Part shown: piece by piece, positions 44,187 through 51,396 of the stretch
Layout of the letters: every line of letters begins with the position of its first letter
Numbering within the stretch: position 1 is the stretch's first letter
NCBI GenBank assembly: GCA_022446885.1
Contig: JAKVBU010000007.1
Coordinates: forward strand, 109,181-173,180
DNA length: 64,000 nucleotides
DNA from: Phycisphaerales bacterium
Lineage (GTDB): Bacteria; Planctomycetota; Phycisphaerae; Phycisphaerales; SM1A02
Direction of reading: 5' to 3'
Translations under genes and position numbers: made by a program
Notes under the pieces: generated by a model
What the model saw: the letters and a program-made list of their open reading frames with translations, nothing else
Databases searched by the model: none
Told to the model about the DNA's origin: nothing

Positions 44187-45137
44187 ATGCCTAGAGCGAA
44201 GATCAGTGTCATTGGTGCCGGAAATGTTGGCGCAACCTGTGCCCATTGGGCGGCCGCCAAGGAGCTTGGCGACATCGTTCTAGTGGACATTCCTGACAAG
44301 ATCGGGGTGGCGCAGGGCAAGGCGCTCGACCTGGCTTGTTGTGGTCCGACAGAGCGGTTCGATGCCTCAATCATCGGCACGAGCGACTATGCCGACGTTG
44401 CAGGAAGTGATGTGGTGATCGTCACGGCGGGGTTGCCCCGAAAGCCGGGCATGAGCCGCGATGATCTCATTGCGACCAACGTCAAGATTGTGCGGAGCGT
44501 GAGTGAGCAGATCGCCACACATGCCCCCGATGCAACCGTGATTCTGGTGTCCAATCCCCTGGACGCGATGGTGTACACCGCTTGGAAGACGACGGGGTTT
44601 GCAACGAATCGGATTGTTGGTCAGGCCGGTTGCCTTGATGTAGCCCGGTTCCGGACATTCATCGCCTGGGAAATTGGTTGCAGCGTTGAGGATGTCACTG
44701 CTCTGTTGATGGGTGGCCACGGTGACGACATGGTGCCACTGCCGCGCTACACGAGTGTGCACGGCATCCCGGTCTCGCAACTGCTGTCTGAAGAGACAAT
44801 CACGGCCTGCGTCGAGCGGGCCAAGGTCGGTGGTGGTGAGGTTGTAAAACTCATGGGCACCAGTGCCTATTACGCCCCCGCCAGCGGGAGTGTCCAGATG
44901 GCAGAGGCCATCATCAAGGACAAGAAGCGGATCCTGCCCTGTGCGGCATACTGCGACAGCGAGTACGGGGTTGGCGGATATTTTGTGGGTGTGCCCTGCG
45001 TGCTCGGATCAGGTGGTGTGGAGAAGGTGATCGAGATCGATCTGGACGCCTCGGAGCAGGCGCTGATGGATGAGTCGGTCTGCCATGTGAAGGATCTGGT
45101 GGGAACGGTAAGAGAGACCTTCCCAGACCTCGCCTAA
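44187..45137 (+). CDS. mdh: Malate dehydrogenase (LDH-like type)
   Basis: NAD-dependent malate dehydrogenase of the TCA cycle, 316 residues. GAGNVGATCA near residue 9 binds NAD; TAGLPRKPGMSRDDL has the Arg pair that selects dicarboxylates, marking malate rather than lactate; SNPLDAM and MGGHGDDMVPL with the catalytic His are intact. A longer frame starts upstream but homology begins at PRAKISVIGAGNV. AGGAA is 14 nt before the ATG, farther than usual. The gene ends 9 bp before the 100-bp inverted-repeat element. Confidence 0.95.
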   Translation: MPRAKISVIGAGNVGATCAHWAAAKELGDIVLVDIPDKIGVAQGKALDLACCGPTERFDASIIGTSDYADVAGSDVVIVTAGLPRKPGMSRDDLIATNVKIVRSVSEQIATHAPDATVILVSNPLDAMVYTAWKTTGFATNRIVGQAGCLDVARFRTFIAWEIGCSVEDVTALLMGGHGDDMVPLPRYTSVHGIPVSQLLSEETITACVERAKVGGGEVVKLMGTSAYYAPASGSVQMAEAIIKDKKRILPCAAYCDSEYGVGGYFVGVPCVLGSGGVEKVIEIDLDASEQALMDESVCHVKDLVGTVRETFPDLA

Positions 45138-45146
45138 AACAAACAC

Positions 45147-45246
45147 TGACCCGTCGGGTGATTTATCTTCGCTAATAGCAACATGTTATGGCGGGCGTCG
45201 CGCGTAACCTGTTGTGGCTACAGCAGATAAATGACCCGACGGGTCA
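45147..45246. repeat. 100-bp inverted-repeat element with palindromic ends
   Basis: Terminal 22-bp arms 45147-45168 and 45225-45246 are inverted copies with one mismatch, and the outer 15 bp of each arm (TGACCCGACGGGTCA on the right, one base off on the left) is itself a palindrome. Inside, 45171-45188 and 45205-45224 are also imperfectly complementary, so nearly all of the element can fold into one long hairpin. Flanking ACAC/GTGT extends the pairing. It occupies most of the mdh to small-gene gap. Possible identities: paired operator for a dimeric regulator, structured RNA, or a MITE-like element. Confidence 0.85.
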
Positions 45247-45262
45247 AGTGTGTCCCGGGAAG

Positions 45263-45268
45263 TATTGT
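45263..45268 (+). promoter_or_regulatory. Possible -10 (TATTGT) of the small-protein/MOSC operon
   Basis: TATTGT ends 6 nt before the ATG at 45275, and no Shine-Dalgarno fits, which suggests a leaderless start. The matching -35 window (about 45240-45245) falls within the right-hand palindrome of the inverted repeat, so a protein bound there would block RNA polymerase. Confidence 0.35.
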
Positions 45269-45274
45269 TGGGGC

Positions 45275-45424
45275 ATGCACGATCGCCCCGGCGAACTCCT
45301 GTCCGACGAGGCCTTGGACGCCCTCGATGCCGCAGCCCTGGAAGGCGCATCCATTCCTTCAGACGAAGATCGAGCCTGGCTCACCGAGAACCTCAACACC
45401 CTGCACGAGAGACTCCAACAGTGA
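45275..45424 (+). CDS. Small acidic protein coupled to the MOSC gene
   Basis: Unrecognised 49-residue acidic protein (many Asp/Glu, Leu and Ala; core LSDEALDALDAAALEG and WLTENLNTLHERLQQ), likely all helical and soluble. No ribosome site; possible leaderless start. The stop overlaps the GTG of the MOSC gene (GTGA), so its translation would deliver ribosomes to that gene. Acidic helical miniproteins of this kind can be regulators or chaperones, but nothing specific can be said. An upstream in-frame extension would run into the inverted repeat and is unlikely. Confidence 0.55.
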   Translation: MHDRPGELLSDEALDALDAAALEGASIPSDEDRAWLTENLNTLHERLQQ

Positions 45425-45888
45425 CCTCCGGAACCTTGCTTGAAATCTGGACTTCACCCTCCAGCGGGGCCGACATGGTCGGCCATGACTCGATCGAAGC
45501 CACCGCCGATCTGGGCCTCACAGGCGACCGCTACGCCGCCGGCCATGGGAGCTACTCTAAACCGGGCCTGCACCCAGACCGACAACTCACGCTGATTGAG
45601 CAGGAACAACTCGATTGGCTGCATGACACACATGGCATCTCGATGTCAGGGGCCGACTCCCGCCGGAATCTGCTCGTCCGGGGCATCGCACTCAATGATC
45701 TCGTGGGCAAGCGAATTCGAATCGGCGACATCGAGGTGGAGGGAATTCGCTTGTGCCAGCCCTGCAAGCCACTGTCCGAGGTGCTCGGCTTCGATTTCGT
45801 TCATCTGATGCTCAACCGAAGCGGTCTCAACTGCCGGGTTGTTTCAGGCGGCACGATTCAGGTCGGTGATCAGGTCGACGCCATCTGA
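45421..45888 (+). CDS. MOSC-domain protein
   Basis: MOSC domain protein of 155 residues, a beta-barrel family with a conserved Cys that carries sulfur to or from molybdenum cofactor-type substrates (mARC, MoCo sulfurase C-terminus, YiiM). The family signature is seen in LGLTGDRYA near 30, RRNLLVRGIALNDLVGKRIRIG near 85-106, and the Cys pair IRLCQPCKPL near 112-121. GTG start overlaps the small upstream gene. Molybdenum-related genes elsewhere in the window (mobA-like, YdeP-like) make a MoCo link reasonable but not shown. Confidence 0.85.
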   Translation: MTSGTLLEIWTSPSSGADMVGHDSIEATADLGLTGDRYAAGHGSYSKPGLHPDRQLTLIEQEQLDWLHDTHGISMSGADSRRNLLVRGIALNDLVGKRIRIGDIEVEGIRLCQPCKPLSEVLGFDFVHLMLNRSGLNCRVVSGGTIQVGDQVDAI

Positions 45889-46065: not shown

Positions 46066-49000
46066 ATGCCCATGCATGATGCGCCCAAGGTTCGACTCTG
46101 GATCGCCGCACTGCTCGTCACAGTGGCCAATGTCTCGCTCTGGCTCTTCTTCTCGGGGAGCGACCCTGATCAAGTCCGAATACAGCATGTCTCCACCGCC
46201 GAGTCGTTCGACAAGACGGGCCGATTGGAGATTCAATTCGACCGGGATGTCATCAAGCCCGAACAACAGTCGGTCGCAATCGAACCACCGCCAATCACAT
46301 TCGCCCCACCCATCGATGGCGTCTGGACAGCACAAACCGCCGACACCATCGTGTTCGAACCCACTGAGCGGCCAGCCCCTGGTCGCGTCTACGCAGTCAA
46401 TCTCGAGGCAGAGCATGCCCTTCTGAGGCGATTCGATGTAGACACAGCCCCCCTCATCGATCTGGCAATTCGGCCTCTGAAGGTGAAGGGCGTGCACCTT
46501 CGCAGCGCGGAACCGCTCCCGGCAGAAGAGGGGCCCACACTTCGACGAGCCACGATCGACGTCACATTCAATCAGCCGGTGGACAGCGCCGATTGTGCGC
46601 AACATGTCCGGTTCGAATCCCGAGGCGATGTGCACCAACCGCTCTGGACTACCACTGGCGTACATGACGTGCACACCTGCACCATTGACGCTGTCAGTGG
46701 AGCCCGCATTCATGTTTCCGCCAGCCCCGAATTGACCGGGCATGGCGGGACCCTTGCCTTGGACAAGCCCCATCAGGCTCGCATCGACATCCCGGTTGGC
46801 CTCATGCCGCTACGGGTCTATACCGACGAGTTCCGGTGGCAACCAGATCAGGCCCGCGTCGGCATCAAGTTCAGCCAACAACTGGACCCTGCCCAAAGTG
46901 TGCCGTCGGTCTCCGTCACTCCAGACATCGGCCCGACCACAGTCCGAATGGGCGGTGCCTGGATTCACGTGGGCGGGGCATTCAAACAGGGCCGCTCATA
47001 CACCCTCTCGATCGACCCACCCCTGCTGTCTACCAGCGGTGACGTGCTGCCTGCGCCGGTCAAGTTGACCGCCACCATCGCGCCCCCTCGGCCACGGCTT
47101 CGATTCGCCCGCCGCATCGGCCGATTGGGAACGAAGGGCGCATTTGAACTCGACCTGCAGCATGTGGGCATCAAGCGAGCGACCATCAAAATTCACAGAC
47201 TGCTCCCACGCCACATCCCCACCTATCTCTCCGGAGTCATGAGTGACTATGAAGTGCCCCATCTGGGTGAACTTGTCACCGAGACCGAATTCGACCTCCC
47301 AGAAGGCGGACTCAATCCGGATGCGCCTCCTGCGGCGCTGTCGCTCGATGGGCTGATCGATCGAACCCCGGGTGTCTATCACATCTCGATCTCCGACACG
47401 CGAACGCGTTGGACAGGTGATCGGCTGTTGCTGCTCGTCGGTGACAGTTCGATCGACCTACAGACGCACGCCGACGGCATGCTCGCTTGGGTCACCGACA
47501 CCTCGACAGGGCAGGGCATCCCGGGCGCCCAAGTCAAGGTGTACAGCCGCAACAGGCGTGACATCGAGGTGGTGTTGACCGACGAACACGGCATTGCACA
47601 TCTGAATTCAAAGTCAGGTGAAGCAGATCTGGTCACGGCTGTTTCCGGTGACGACCTGATCTTCATCGAGCCTTCAAAGGCAGCCGCGATCGAAGACCGA
47701 GCACTGGCCGGGGCGCCCTGGCAGGGCCCGCTGGATGTCGCCCTCTATGCCGACCGAGGCGTGCATCGTCCAGGTGAGCCGGTACATCTGACCGGAGTGG
47801 TACGCACACGAGCAGGAGACATGCCCGGCGCCCTGCCGCTGGAAGTGCGATTCACACGGCCCGACAACAAACTGATCCTCGAGCAGGTCGTCATGACAGA
47901 CCCTCTCCAGAGTGTTCTGCACATTGACCTCCCGACCCAAAGCGACGACATGACTGGCAACTGGCGAGCCAGTGTTCATCTCGCTGGAGACGACGAGCCG
48001 CTGGCATCGCTCACCTGTCCGATCATGCCGGTTTTGCCGGTTCGGCTCACGGTGGATGCCACGCCCCATGAACAAGATGGCGAAACGCGACTCGTGGACA
48101 TCGCCTCGTCCTATCTCCACGGTGCACCCGCTGCAGGTCTTCCAGCATCGGTCAAGGCCACGTTTACACCCCAAAGGCACACAGACGATCGATGGCCCGA
48201 CTTCACATTTGAAGATCCACCGGAGATCTCCGCCCAAAGGAAGCTGGTCAAGGGCACGCTCGACGCCCAGGGCACGACGCAATTGACTGTCACATCACCA
48301 AAGCAGGCGGGCTCATGGCGAACCGAACTGGAAGCGTCTGTACTGGAATTGGGTGGGCGAGCCACAACTCGATGGACTCGCGTGGACACCGACACAGCCA
48401 CGGCGCATTTGGGCGTCCGTCTGCCCGGCGGCAAACTGCATCGGCCCGACAATCAGGTCGAAGTTGAGGCGATCGTCATTGATCGCGATGGAGCGCCCAC
48501 CATCGATGGGGGCATTACCGCTGAATTGCACCAGATTGAGAACGAGTGGCAACTCGTCAAAGACAAGCAAGGACATCGATCCTGGCGGTCTATTGAGATC
48601 GCTACACCCGTGCAGAACGCCAACATCACACTGGAGGCAGATCTCGACCGCTGGAAGACGGCCGTCGGTCCGCTGCCCACAGGGACCTATCGCCTCACAC
48701 TCCACCGCCCTGAACATCGACTGACGGCATCTGTGCCACTGCACGTTGCTGGCTCTGGAGCGAGCGGTCGCATTTCGGCGCTCCGCCCAGATCGCTTGGA
48801 GTTGGTTCCGGAACACGAGCAGGTATTGCCCGGTATGGAAACCTCCGTGCTGATTCGATCGCCCTTCGCTGGATTGGCGCTCGTGACAGTTGAGACCGAT
48901 GCCATCGTGTCGACCGCGCTCCACCCGATCGAGGGCGACGGCGGGCGAATCCCCCTGACCATTCCGGAGGACGTGCGAGACACATGCTTCGTAGGTGCCA

Positions 49001-51396
49001 CGCTCATCCGCCCGCTCGATCATGAACGAGAATCCTGGCTTCCCCTTCGAGCCCGCGGCGCGACTCGGCTCCGTGTCGATCGCTCTCGCCACATCCTGCC
49101 GGCCACCGTAACGTCGATCGACAAGGCGCAGCCGGGAGACATCATCGAAGTGAACGTGTCAGTTCCCCCAGCCGAGATTGCCAATTCCACCTCCCCTCAG
49201 GTGCACTTGTGGGCTGTCGAGGAAGGCGCCCTGCTCCTGACCGACTACACGGTGCCCGATCTGCTGGGCACGTTCCTGCAAGACCGGAGACGAGTCGTCG
49301 AATCGGCCAGCACGATGGGCGATCTTCTGCCCGACTACGCCCGGCCCGAGACGACCGACCGCATCGGCGCCGACGTTGCTCGGCGGTTCCGATCTCCCGT
49401 TCCCATTCGGCAGCGAGACATCAACGTTCTGTGGCATGAGGTTCGGCAGCTTGAGGACGATGGCACGGTGCAGTTCGATCTTCAGATGCCCGATCTTGAC
49501 GGCGCCATGCGAGTCATGGCGGTCGTGATCGACGAAGATCGATTCGGCCGCGCCGAACATCTTGTGGGGGTGGCTGCGCCCTTGAGCATCACGGCTGCAC
49601 TGCCTCGAGCAGCCGCACCCGGCGATGCAATGACAATTCCCCTGACGGTGCACAACCGGACAGCCGAACCACTCACTGTTGATCTGACATTGCACTGTGA
49701 TGATCAACTCAACGGCGGCGTCACGCCTGAATCGGTGCAGGTGCCACCGCACGCACAAGCGAGTGCCATCTTGAAACTCACAGCCCATGAGCTGGGGCAA
49801 GGTTCGGTCCGCCTCGATGGGCGAGCGGCCTCGGGCCTGAGCGCCAAGTTGACGCATGACCTCACGGTTCGACCGCCTCACGGACGGGATCGTGAGACGC
49901 GATACCTCTTGGCCGACCCCGGGCAGCGCATCGAAATCGAGCGACGGCGAGATCTGGATGCACTCAATGGCCGCGTTGAACTTCTGATCGGCGGTGTCCC
50001 CGGGGTGGATCTGGCCCCAGTGCTCGATGGGCTCATCGACTACCCATGGGGCTGCGCCGAGCAGACCGGTTCGCGTTTGCAGGGGCTGCTGGCAGCAAGC
50101 CAATTGCCCGCCACGATCACAGGGCACGATCCGGAGACCATCCGGCACATTGCCAGATCTTGTCTTGATCGACTGTGGCACATGCAGCGGGCCGACGGCG
50201 GCATGCCCTATTGGAGCGGCGGACGCTCGGACGCATGGCTCACCCATCGCACGGCGCTACTGGCGCTCATGGCTCGTTCGCAAGATGTCGATCCGCCTGA
50301 TCACTTCATTGATGACTTGTTGAAGTGGACGAGAGACAAGGCCCGCTCAGACCATGCTGCTGGGCGACGCTCGCAGGCTGCCATGGCATGCCGAGTGCTG
50401 GCGCGGGCAGGTGAGTGTGATGAAGCGTTGTTGAAGTCTCTGGCAGGATCAGCAGATACCCTCAATCCCACTGATCTTGCACATCTCGCCGACGCTGCCG
50501 CGACACATGGCGATCTGGAACTGGCGAATTCACTGCTCTCAAACGTGCATGCGCACTCAACGATCGATCCCTCGGGTCGATTCCGGTCAAGATCCGCGAC
50601 GCTGGCGATCATCCTTGAAGTGCTTCTCGCCAACGACATCGATCACCCTGAGTTGATTGAGTTTGTGCGCCAATTGCAGGAGTCCCGCAATGGGAAGGCA
50701 TGGCACACCACGTTCGAGAACGCAGCGGCACTCGCCGCCATGTCACATTGGGTTCAGCGGCAGCAACCTTCGGGCACAGCACAGGGACAGTTGCACATCG
50801 CCGGACGGACGGTTGAATTCGATGGCAACGAACCTACTCGCGTGTCTTTCGATATCGAGGATGTCTCTGAGCTGCCTGAGCAACTCGTCTCCACAGGCGA
50901 TGGGCCGGTGACAGTCGTCTTGACCTCCTCCGGCGTGCCCTCTTCTCAGCAGGCAAGCGACCCAATCGACGGCGTGATCAGCGTTGAGCGCACTTGGCTG
51001 AGTGCGACGGGTGAACCGTTGGATCCGAGCACCCCGGTTCAGGCTGGTGATCTGATCACGGTAGACCTGCAACTGGAGGCTCGACCGGGCCGGCGATGGA
51101 CAGACGTTGCGCTCGTGGATGTCCTTCCAGGTGGCATGGAGTTCGAATTGCCTTCACTCGCCACCAGCGCCGGCAAAGACGATGTCAAGCTCGCCGATGT
51201 TGATCGTGTGGAGTTTCGAGATGACAGGCTGGTGGCGTTCCTGACAGTCGATGACACCCCACGGCGCGTGCGCTACGTGATGCGAGCGGTTGTTCCCGGT
51301 GATTGGGCGCTTCCTGCAACTGATGCGCTGGCCATGTACGACCCCGAAGGTCATGGGCGATCTGCTTCCGGACGATGCCGGATCGAACTGCCATGA
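46066..51396 (+). CDS. Bacterial alpha-2-macroglobulin
   Basis: Periplasmic protease trap of 1776 residues. An N-terminal hydrophobic helix (about 8-30) acts as anchor or signal; unlike E. coli YfhM there is no lipobox. Macroglobulin beta-domains fill about 45-1000 (bait-region-like area around 480-560 with VALYADRGVHRPGEPVHLTG), and the thioester domain carries the intact motif GCAEQ near residue 1330 within an alpha-helical thioester domain; a C-terminal receptor-like domain ends the protein. The thioester can bind attacking proteases covalently. The first ATG has AGGAA only 3 nt away; the ATG two codons later (46072) has 9 nt and may be the true start. ATGA overlap with pbpC. Confidence 0.93.
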   Translation: MPMHDAPKVRLWIAALLVTVANVSLWLFFSGSDPDQVRIQHVSTAESFDKTGRLEIQFDRDVIKPEQQSVAIEPPPITFAPPIDGVWTAQTADTIVFEPTERPAPGRVYAVNLEAEHALLRRFDVDTAPLIDLAIRPLKVKGVHLRSAEPLPAEEGPTLRRATIDVTFNQPVDSADCAQHVRFESRGDVHQPLWTTTGVHDVHTCTIDAVSGARIHVSASPELTGHGGTLALDKPHQARIDIPVGLMPLRVYTDEFRWQPDQARVGIKFSQQLDPAQSVPSVSVTPDIGPTTVRMGGAWIHVGGAFKQGRSYTLSIDPPLLSTSGDVLPAPVKLTATIAPPRPRLRFARRIGRLGTKGAFELDLQHVGIKRATIKIHRLLPRHIPTYLSGVMSDYEVPHLGELVTETEFDLPEGGLNPDAPPAALSLDGLIDRTPGVYHISISDTRTRWTGDRLLLLVGDSSIDLQTHADGMLAWVTDTSTGQGIPGAQVKVYSRNRRDIEVVLTDEHGIAHLNSKSGEADLVTAVSGDDLIFIEPSKAAAIEDRALAGAPWQGPLDVALYADRGVHRPGEPVHLTGVVRTRAGDMPGALPLEVRFTRPDNKLILEQVVMTDPLQSVLHIDLPTQSDDMTGNWRASVHLAGDDEPLASLTCPIMPVLPVRLTVDATPHEQDGETRLVDIASSYLHGAPAAGLPASVKATFTPQRHTDDRWPDFTFEDPPEISAQRKLVKGTLDAQGTTQLTVTSPKQAGSWRTELEASVLELGGRATTRWTRVDTDTATAHLGVRLPGGKLHRPDNQVEVEAIVIDRDGAPTIDGGITAELHQIENEWQLVKDKQGHRSWRSIEIATPVQNANITLEADLDRWKTAVGPLPTGTYRLTLHRPEHRLTASVPLHVAGSGASGRISALRPDRLELVPEHEQVLPGMETSVLIRSPFAGLALVTVETDAIVSTALHPIEGDGGRIPLTIPEDVRDTCFVGATLIRPLDHERESWLPLRARGATRLRVDRSRHILPATVTSIDKAQPGDIIEVNVSVPPAEIANSTSPQVHLWAVEEGALLLTDYTVPDLLGTFLQDRRRVVESASTMGDLLPDYARPETTDRIGADVARRFRSPVPIRQRDINVLWHEVRQLEDDGTVQFDLQMPDLDGAMRVMAVVIDEDRFGRAEHLVGVAAPLSITAALPRAAAPGDAMTIPLTVHNRTAEPLTVDLTLHCDDQLNGGVTPESVQVPPHAQASAILKLTAHELGQGSVRLDGRAASGLSAKLTHDLTVRPPHGRDRETRYLLADPGQRIEIERRRDLDALNGRVELLIGGVPGVDLAPVLDGLIDYPWGCAEQTGSRLQGLLAASQLPATITGHDPETIRHIARSCLDRLWHMQRADGGMPYWSGGRSDAWLTHRTALLALMARSQDVDPPDHFIDDLLKWTRDKARSDHAAGRRSQAAMACRVLARAGECDEALLKSLAGSADTLNPTDLAHLADAAATHGDLELANSLLSNVHAHSTIDPSGRFRSRSATLAIILEVLLANDIDHPELIEFVRQLQESRNGKAWHTTFENAAALAAMSHWVQRQQPSGTAQGQLHIAGRTVEFDGNEPTRVSFDIEDVSELPEQLVSTGDGPVTVVLTSSGVPSSQQASDPIDGVISVERTWLSATGEPLDPSTPVQAGDLITVDLQLEARPGRRWTDVALVDVLPGGMEFELPSLATSAGKDDVKLADVDRVEFRDDRLVAFLTVDDTPRRVRYVMRAVVPGDWALPATDALAMYDPEGHGRSASGRCRIELP

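Follow-up and report, generated by a model that had tools for sequence, protein, structure and literature searches.

The locus lies within a 64,000-nucleotide stretch of DNA (the whole stretch that was analysed, hereafter the window) from the draft genome of a Phycisphaerales bacterium (G000; 2,867,813 bases (2.87 Mb) in 108 contigs, 97% complete and 2.8% contaminated). A 100-bp nested inverted-repeat element is situated between the malate dehydrogenase gene mdh and a small open frame that is followed by a MOSC-domain gene (Table 1). Family searches with the 49-codon frame gave no match. Further downstream, positions 46066-51396 form a 1776-codon open frame, which, to judge from its appearance, presumably encodes an alpha-2-macroglobulin-type protein.

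Table 1. Features of the element and of the genes next to it (window positions)
Feature	Position	Strand	Basis or remark
Whole element, two inverted palindromes and spacer	45147..45246	.	sequence, fold, copies, simulation
Left end palindrome TGACCCGTCGGGTGA, one mismatch	45147..45161	.	
Left conserved foot TTTATCT beside palindrome	45162..45168	+	other strand read from inside is TAAA
Left inner dyad motif CAAC...TTAT	45179..45189	+	
Right inner dyad motif GTAAC...GTTG	45204..45214	+	
Right conserved foot AGATAAA	45225..45231	+	
Right end palindrome TGACCCGACGGGTCA	45232..45246	.	
Malate dehydrogenase gene mdh	44187..45137	+	stop codon ends 9 nt before element; context
49-codon small open frame 3' of element	45275..45424	+	context
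MOSC-domain gene	45421..45888	+	PF03473, 52.3 bits; context

The position and total length that an earlier note on this DNA had assigned to the element proved right, as did its description of inverted 22-bp ends (the left end differs from the reverse complement of the right at 1 of 22 positions) and of a 15-bp palindrome in each end, both of which were located. These two are the only sites in the window that match the palindrome at up to two mismatches; as many matches were obtained in 6 of 100 shuffles, so the palindrome motif is by itself not improbable. The 22-bp inverted repeat (at most one mismatch, span 60-200 bp) has a single occurrence in the window, namely this element, and the same criterion gave none in 30 Markov-simulated 64-kb windows. 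A pair of 42-nt arms, 79% complementary, stretches across the element, and the RNA fold of the region (-68.5 kcal/mol, z -7.1) was equalled by none of 200 shuffles, while the DNA fold of the 100 bp alone had a z of -7.9. Two inverted palindromic units, a spacer and the capacity to form one hairpin are thus combined in 100 bp, as in a REPIN.

The claimed overlap of the element with the expected -35 region of the next operon could not be upheld, since no sigma-70-like site was found in 44900-45500, with the reservation that the promoters of this phylum may differ. A scan for promoters and terminators near the element gave nothing on the plus (mdh) strand and, on the minus strand, a single weak match resembling a terminator, inside the right palindrome. 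When the window was compared with Rfam, the gathering score was reached by one tRNA only and the element had no match; a plasmid search and one exact viral-contig pattern did not match it either.

The genome search for both arms that the earlier note had recommended recovered five 100-bp copies at unrelated places in G000, located on contigs C76 (the window element), C13, C65 (two copies) and C98. Their ends follow the form GACCCGTCGGGTCATTTATCT ... AGATAAATGACCCGACGGGTC with few changes, and their cores vary from copy to copy; a recurrent feature is a short inner dyad (CA...TTA / TAA...TG). At up to three mismatches, the end pattern had 17 matches in this genome, all within the five copies, compared with 7 for a backwards control pattern. 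Based on mechanical open frames, each of the five copies begins 9 or 12 nt past the stop of the frame reading into it; the element is therefore repeated in the genome and lies outside genes, which is a further property of REPINs. Inspection by eye of the sequence on either side of each copy revealed no target-site duplication, the classical mark of a MITE.

One of the copies (C65:275732-275831) is found 54 bp upstream of an intact 226-codon Y1 transposase gene (C65:275886-276563, outside the window), so that a RAYT-type gene is present in the same genome, as expected for a REPIN. The protein matched PF01797 with 50.8 bits (cut-off 23) and the NCBIfam family NF047646 (REP_Tyr_transpos) with 65 bits (E 6.7e-18), which is below the cut-off of 80. 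The top match in PDB for a profile of 23 relatives was E. coli TnpAREP 4er8 (E 1e-8), and the same structure, a RAYT bound to a REP hairpin, was the best Foldseek match of the predicted model (mean pLDDT 85; E 2.7e-8; TM 0.71 on target). N58, H59, H61 and Y121 were invariant across the 23 relatives, and the protein is predicted to have the Y1 fold with the HUH motif and the single catalytic tyrosine that characterize RAYT/TnpAREP proteins. The element accompanies this gene on one side only; at L004:2257-2335, the RAYT frame overlaps the 3' end of its convergent neighbour by ~79 bases, and a downstream element copy is absent. A second RAYT-like gene in G000 (C51:2449-2817), broken by one internal TGA, is 35% identical to the intact one, and no nested repeat was found around it.

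A similar arrangement was detected in a genome of the sister genus (G063), which contains at least 15 copies whose palindrome differs from that of G000. Its RAYT is 50% identical to that of G000 and 100% identical to a RAYT on JASMLR010000003.1 (Phycisphaerales MAG Arabian9_MAG_45). In both genomes the RAYT gene has the same neighbours, named by sequence as a putative RND-type transporter and a putative prolyl-oligopeptidase-like gene, and in G063 an element copy is present on each side of it. The palindrome is uniform within each genome: all 10 ends of the G000 copies read CCCGTCGGGT, whereas the same columns read ACCGCCGGTC in all 30 ends of G063. The TTTA foot beside the palindromes is common to the two genomes, with 2 changes in 160 letters (columns 16, 17 and 19 constant in 40 of 40 ends and column 18 in 38 of 40). 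In 9 of the 15 G063 copies, a TGA at bases 2-4 of one end provides the stop codon of a mechanical frame of at least 80 codons, and in 7 of these 9 the closed frame has at least 280 codons. At L046:2358-2457 of this genome, the first bases of the element serve as the stop of the oligopeptidase-like gene and the other end holds the stop of the RAYT gene. In addition, two elements stand nearly in tandem at G063:C44:181439-181644 (L050), with ~4-5 bases between them.

Among 34 RAYT-like loci, 31 had flanks long enough for an inverted-repeat test, and a perfect inverted 16-mer was shared between the flanks in 22 of these, including G063 and not G000; in shuffled flanks, the best inverted 16-mer had 2-5 mismatches. 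Many of the inverted-flank cores resemble GG[GT]GTC[AG]G. Flanks made of inverted repeats unrelated to GTAG REPs, which define TIRYT genes, are present in G063 and one-sided in G000. The two closest RAYT relatives after G063 (46% and 44% identity), at L081:1303-2285 and L082:1114-2073, have palindrome dimers of other sequence in both flanks (AAACTCACC...GGTGAGTTT; AATTGACTC...GAGTCAATT). Another relative, at L088:1162-2034, has 86-bp inverted units on each side with AAAAAGGGGTCGGGAG ends, the units themselves not being palindromic.

With a covariance model, the element was detected in 8 out of 151 family genomes, and a wider model found the same 8 among 400 genomes of the order (2 of 163 genera); within its own genus, the element was matched in one of three genomes. 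Both runs used stricter filters and scored 27 and 10 candidates per genome, respectively, and copy numbers are therefore lower bounds.

Absence could also be observed at related sites. One related mdh-MOSC junction was found, on a second contig of the same assembly (C38), and the element is absent there: the gene order is the same and the spacer measures 44 nt, compared with 137 nt in the window (start codons chosen by eye), with 91% identity in mdh and 92.7% in the MOSC region. This contig (locus L078) carries a second mdh-small frame-MOSC stretch, about 92% identical, and represents either a contaminating strain or a duplicate. In G036 and G065, no element is found behind mdh, and the next gene there is different. 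The slot behind the C13 gene is filled in G063; it is empty in G036, in G100 and in as much of G120 as could be read. One decayed element and no RAYT were found at the RAYT locus of G120 and at that of G144, and the locus in G065 has neither. In a rigid arm test, these two remnants, which were recognised by eye and alignment and are not part of the 17 copies considered below, had mismatches at 9 of 14 (G120, a 98-base stretch) and 4 of 14 (G144) positions. Core similarity did not single out common descent of the two shared slots, the same-orientation comparisons ranking 35 of 150 for the C13 slot and 23 of 150 for the RAYT locus on its transporter side; the longest exact run among the 150 core comparisons, 14 nt, occurred in the C13-slot pair.

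A search for Y1 genes in ten genomes detected them in three (G000, G063 and G129), the G129 gene being distant and without such flanks. The six relatives in which no cognate transposase was detected have fewer recognised copies, the arms of which are mostly decayed. Arms paired at 18.85 of 20 positions in 20 copies from G000 and G063, versus 14.8 of 20 in 17 copies from these six relatives (Mann-Whitney p 8e-7, for copies that are not independent and share phylogeny, in genomes some of which are incomplete). One of the 17, on C147 of G129, has an arm score of 8, perhaps through a shifted register; in G111, where no gene was detected, the arms of the only copy pair at 19 of 20. Better-paired arms where the cognate gene is present fit maintenance by the transposase, within the limits set by incomplete drafts.

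Conservation of the hairpin was further analyzed in 16 of 26 elements, picked to align without gaps. The proposed hairpin had 89.6% of cells paired and 72 cells changed on both sides, compared with 31-44% and 4-17, respectively, when it was slid by 1-3 columns. Three of five covariation measures were never reached by shuffles, whereas the other two, double-change pairs (41/500) and pair types (245/500), were within the shuffle range. Within one genome, pairing is as good between halves taken from different elements as between the halves of a single element; much of the covariation signal is therefore one palindrome change between genomes. When each genome is taken by itself, covariation is seen in the inner dyad at columns 36 and 39 (p 0.013 and 0.003, 50 columns tested; p 0.0097 for columns 36-39 together). 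Selection of an RNA structure along the full length was considered and rejected, as columns 23-31 matched at 65 of 180 letters versus 74.3 expected (p 0.95). Since columns 36 and 39 covary and columns 23-31 do not, it is the length and the dyad that are kept and not most of the spacer letters, as described for REPIN spacers (PMC3116915).

The earlier note had left three options side by side, namely a double operator, a structured RNA and a MITE-like mobile unit. A double-stranded protein site, either a double operator or a chromosome-organising site whose palindromes are bound by a dimeric regulator and whose copies form a small regulon, would account for short dyad palindromes at a fixed spacing and for halves that match across elements as well as within one. 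It is nevertheless very unlikely, because the copies come after stop codons rather than before starts, the promoter scan nearby found none, copies flank both sides of a Y1 transposase gene, and the element occurs in only 8 of 400 genomes of the order; as an operator of this particular operon it is not supported, because the copies follow unrelated genes and it is not conserved at the locus, the related mdh-MOSC junction being empty. A 3'-terminal mRNA element that acts as a terminator, a stabiliser or a ribosome-stalling hairpin and is selected via the upstream gene appears similarly improbable. The very stable RNA fold and the uniform distance of 9 or 12 nt from the stop of the frame reading in are what such an element would be expected to display, and E. 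coli REPs at most 15 nt from a stop have been reported to stall ribosomes (part of PMC12306157, citing its reference 17). However, the mdh strand is without a terminator-like site, the element is missing behind mdh in C38, G036 and G065, Rfam contains no match, and the linkage to a transposase gene would be left unexplained; an RNA conserved ahead of this operon is not supported either, in view of copies that follow unrelated genes and of the lack of conservation here, with the hairpin capacity still being kept between copies.

The mobile-unit option is the one that withstood the comparison, in view of the five unrelated sites, the copy beside the transposase gene, the copies on both sides of that gene in G063 and the absence at the related junction. 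A classical MITE, that is, a deletion derivative of an insertion sequence with a DDE transposase, would likewise be small and non-coding, with inverted ends and several copies, but the gene next to the copies belongs to the Y1/HUH type and the flanks lack a visible target-site duplication, which makes this form of mobile unit extremely unlikely. Copies at unrelated sites, linkage to a transposase and absence at a related junction indicate a REPIN-like repeat and not an operator or RNA of this operon. The element at 45147-45246 is thus very probably a REPIN-like non-autonomous repeat, with the RAYT-type Y1 transposase of the same genome as its likely enzyme.

How such a repeat may work can be outlined from its anatomy and from the linked gene. 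In single-stranded DNA, probably at the replication fork, each palindrome would form a hairpin, or the whole element one long hairpin; the transposase would bind hairpin and foot, cut with its tyrosine, and in this way spread or renew copies, of which those that persist would sit close behind stop codons. In such positions, the hairpin formed in RNA may as a side effect influence the transcript of the preceding gene, in this case mdh; such an effect is possible because ribosome stalling has been reported for REPs no more than 15 nt from the stop codon (part of PMC12306157). A more far-reaching and rather unlikely proposal is that a RAYT subtype reported to be without REPs maintains a REPIN population by a code of its own (a TAAA foot plus palindrome, not GT[AG]G) and that, as the transposase diverges, all resident copies switch palindrome together, those in gene-end slots shared by the two genera included, so that the enzyme would rewrite resident ends and not only insert new ones.

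These findings add uncultured Phycisphaerales to the known range of repeat-RAYT partnerships, together with a transposase type from which REPs were said to be missing. The two genera, whose palindromes differ and whose transposases are half identical, provide a natural pair for swaps of the recognition code. The REPIN-like identity also accounts for a striking structure at mdh for which an operator or a riboswitch might otherwise be proposed. None of the titles and abstract openings listed by the literature searches names this repeat family.

Partnerships of the REPIN-RAYT type are known in other bacteria. The present element has in common with REPINs, as far as part of the original description goes (Bertels and Rainey 2011, PMC3116915), two inverted palindromic units, conserved spacer length and hairpin capacity, a RAYT link and an extragenic position, but it differs from them in lacking the GTAG/GTGG foot, in having 5 to at least 15 copies where REPINs number hundreds, and in the subtype of its transposase. 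It would work as a REPIN does and does not belong to the GTAG REPs: more than 100 REPs per genome are usual, according to part of PMC2817692, compared with 5 in G000 and at least 15 in G063, and the ends in both genomes have a TAAA foot in place of the canonical 5' GT[AG]G. In parts of a survey that reports GTAG and CGTC REPs from Planctomycetes (Di Nocera et al. 2013, PMC3733652), such REPs are described near gene 3' ends, with termini that often give a stop codon, as here in G063, and as dimers with spacers of 20-100 bp; the difference is that neither tag is present at the foot here, CGTC being found inside the G000 palindrome and not in that of G063. TnpAREP 4er8 is the top match of the linked protein by profile and by fold, at 18% identity; the differences are an extra C-terminal part and a partner repeat without GTAG.

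The G000 transposase resembles the TIR-flanked RAYTs (TIRYT). In the same parts of PMC3733652, TIRYT genes, or TIRtrons, are RAYT-like Y1 genes with non-GTAG inverted-repeat flanks, some of them self-complementary, and TIR repeats form in places moderately abundant families organised as dimers. From its length, Y---NP motif and tail, set against the table in PMC6006769, the protein would belong to subclass 2.1, the home of most TIRYTs, which part of that paper reports to be without REP-like sequences. Unlike those of TIRYTs, the flanking unit here is itself a double palindrome, 100 bp long and with a dyad inside, and the consensus sequence GGGGWSAS (part of PMC3733652) does not occur as such in the element ends, whereas the flank cores of the relatives, similar to GG[GT]GTC[AG]G, are close to the TIR consensus given there.
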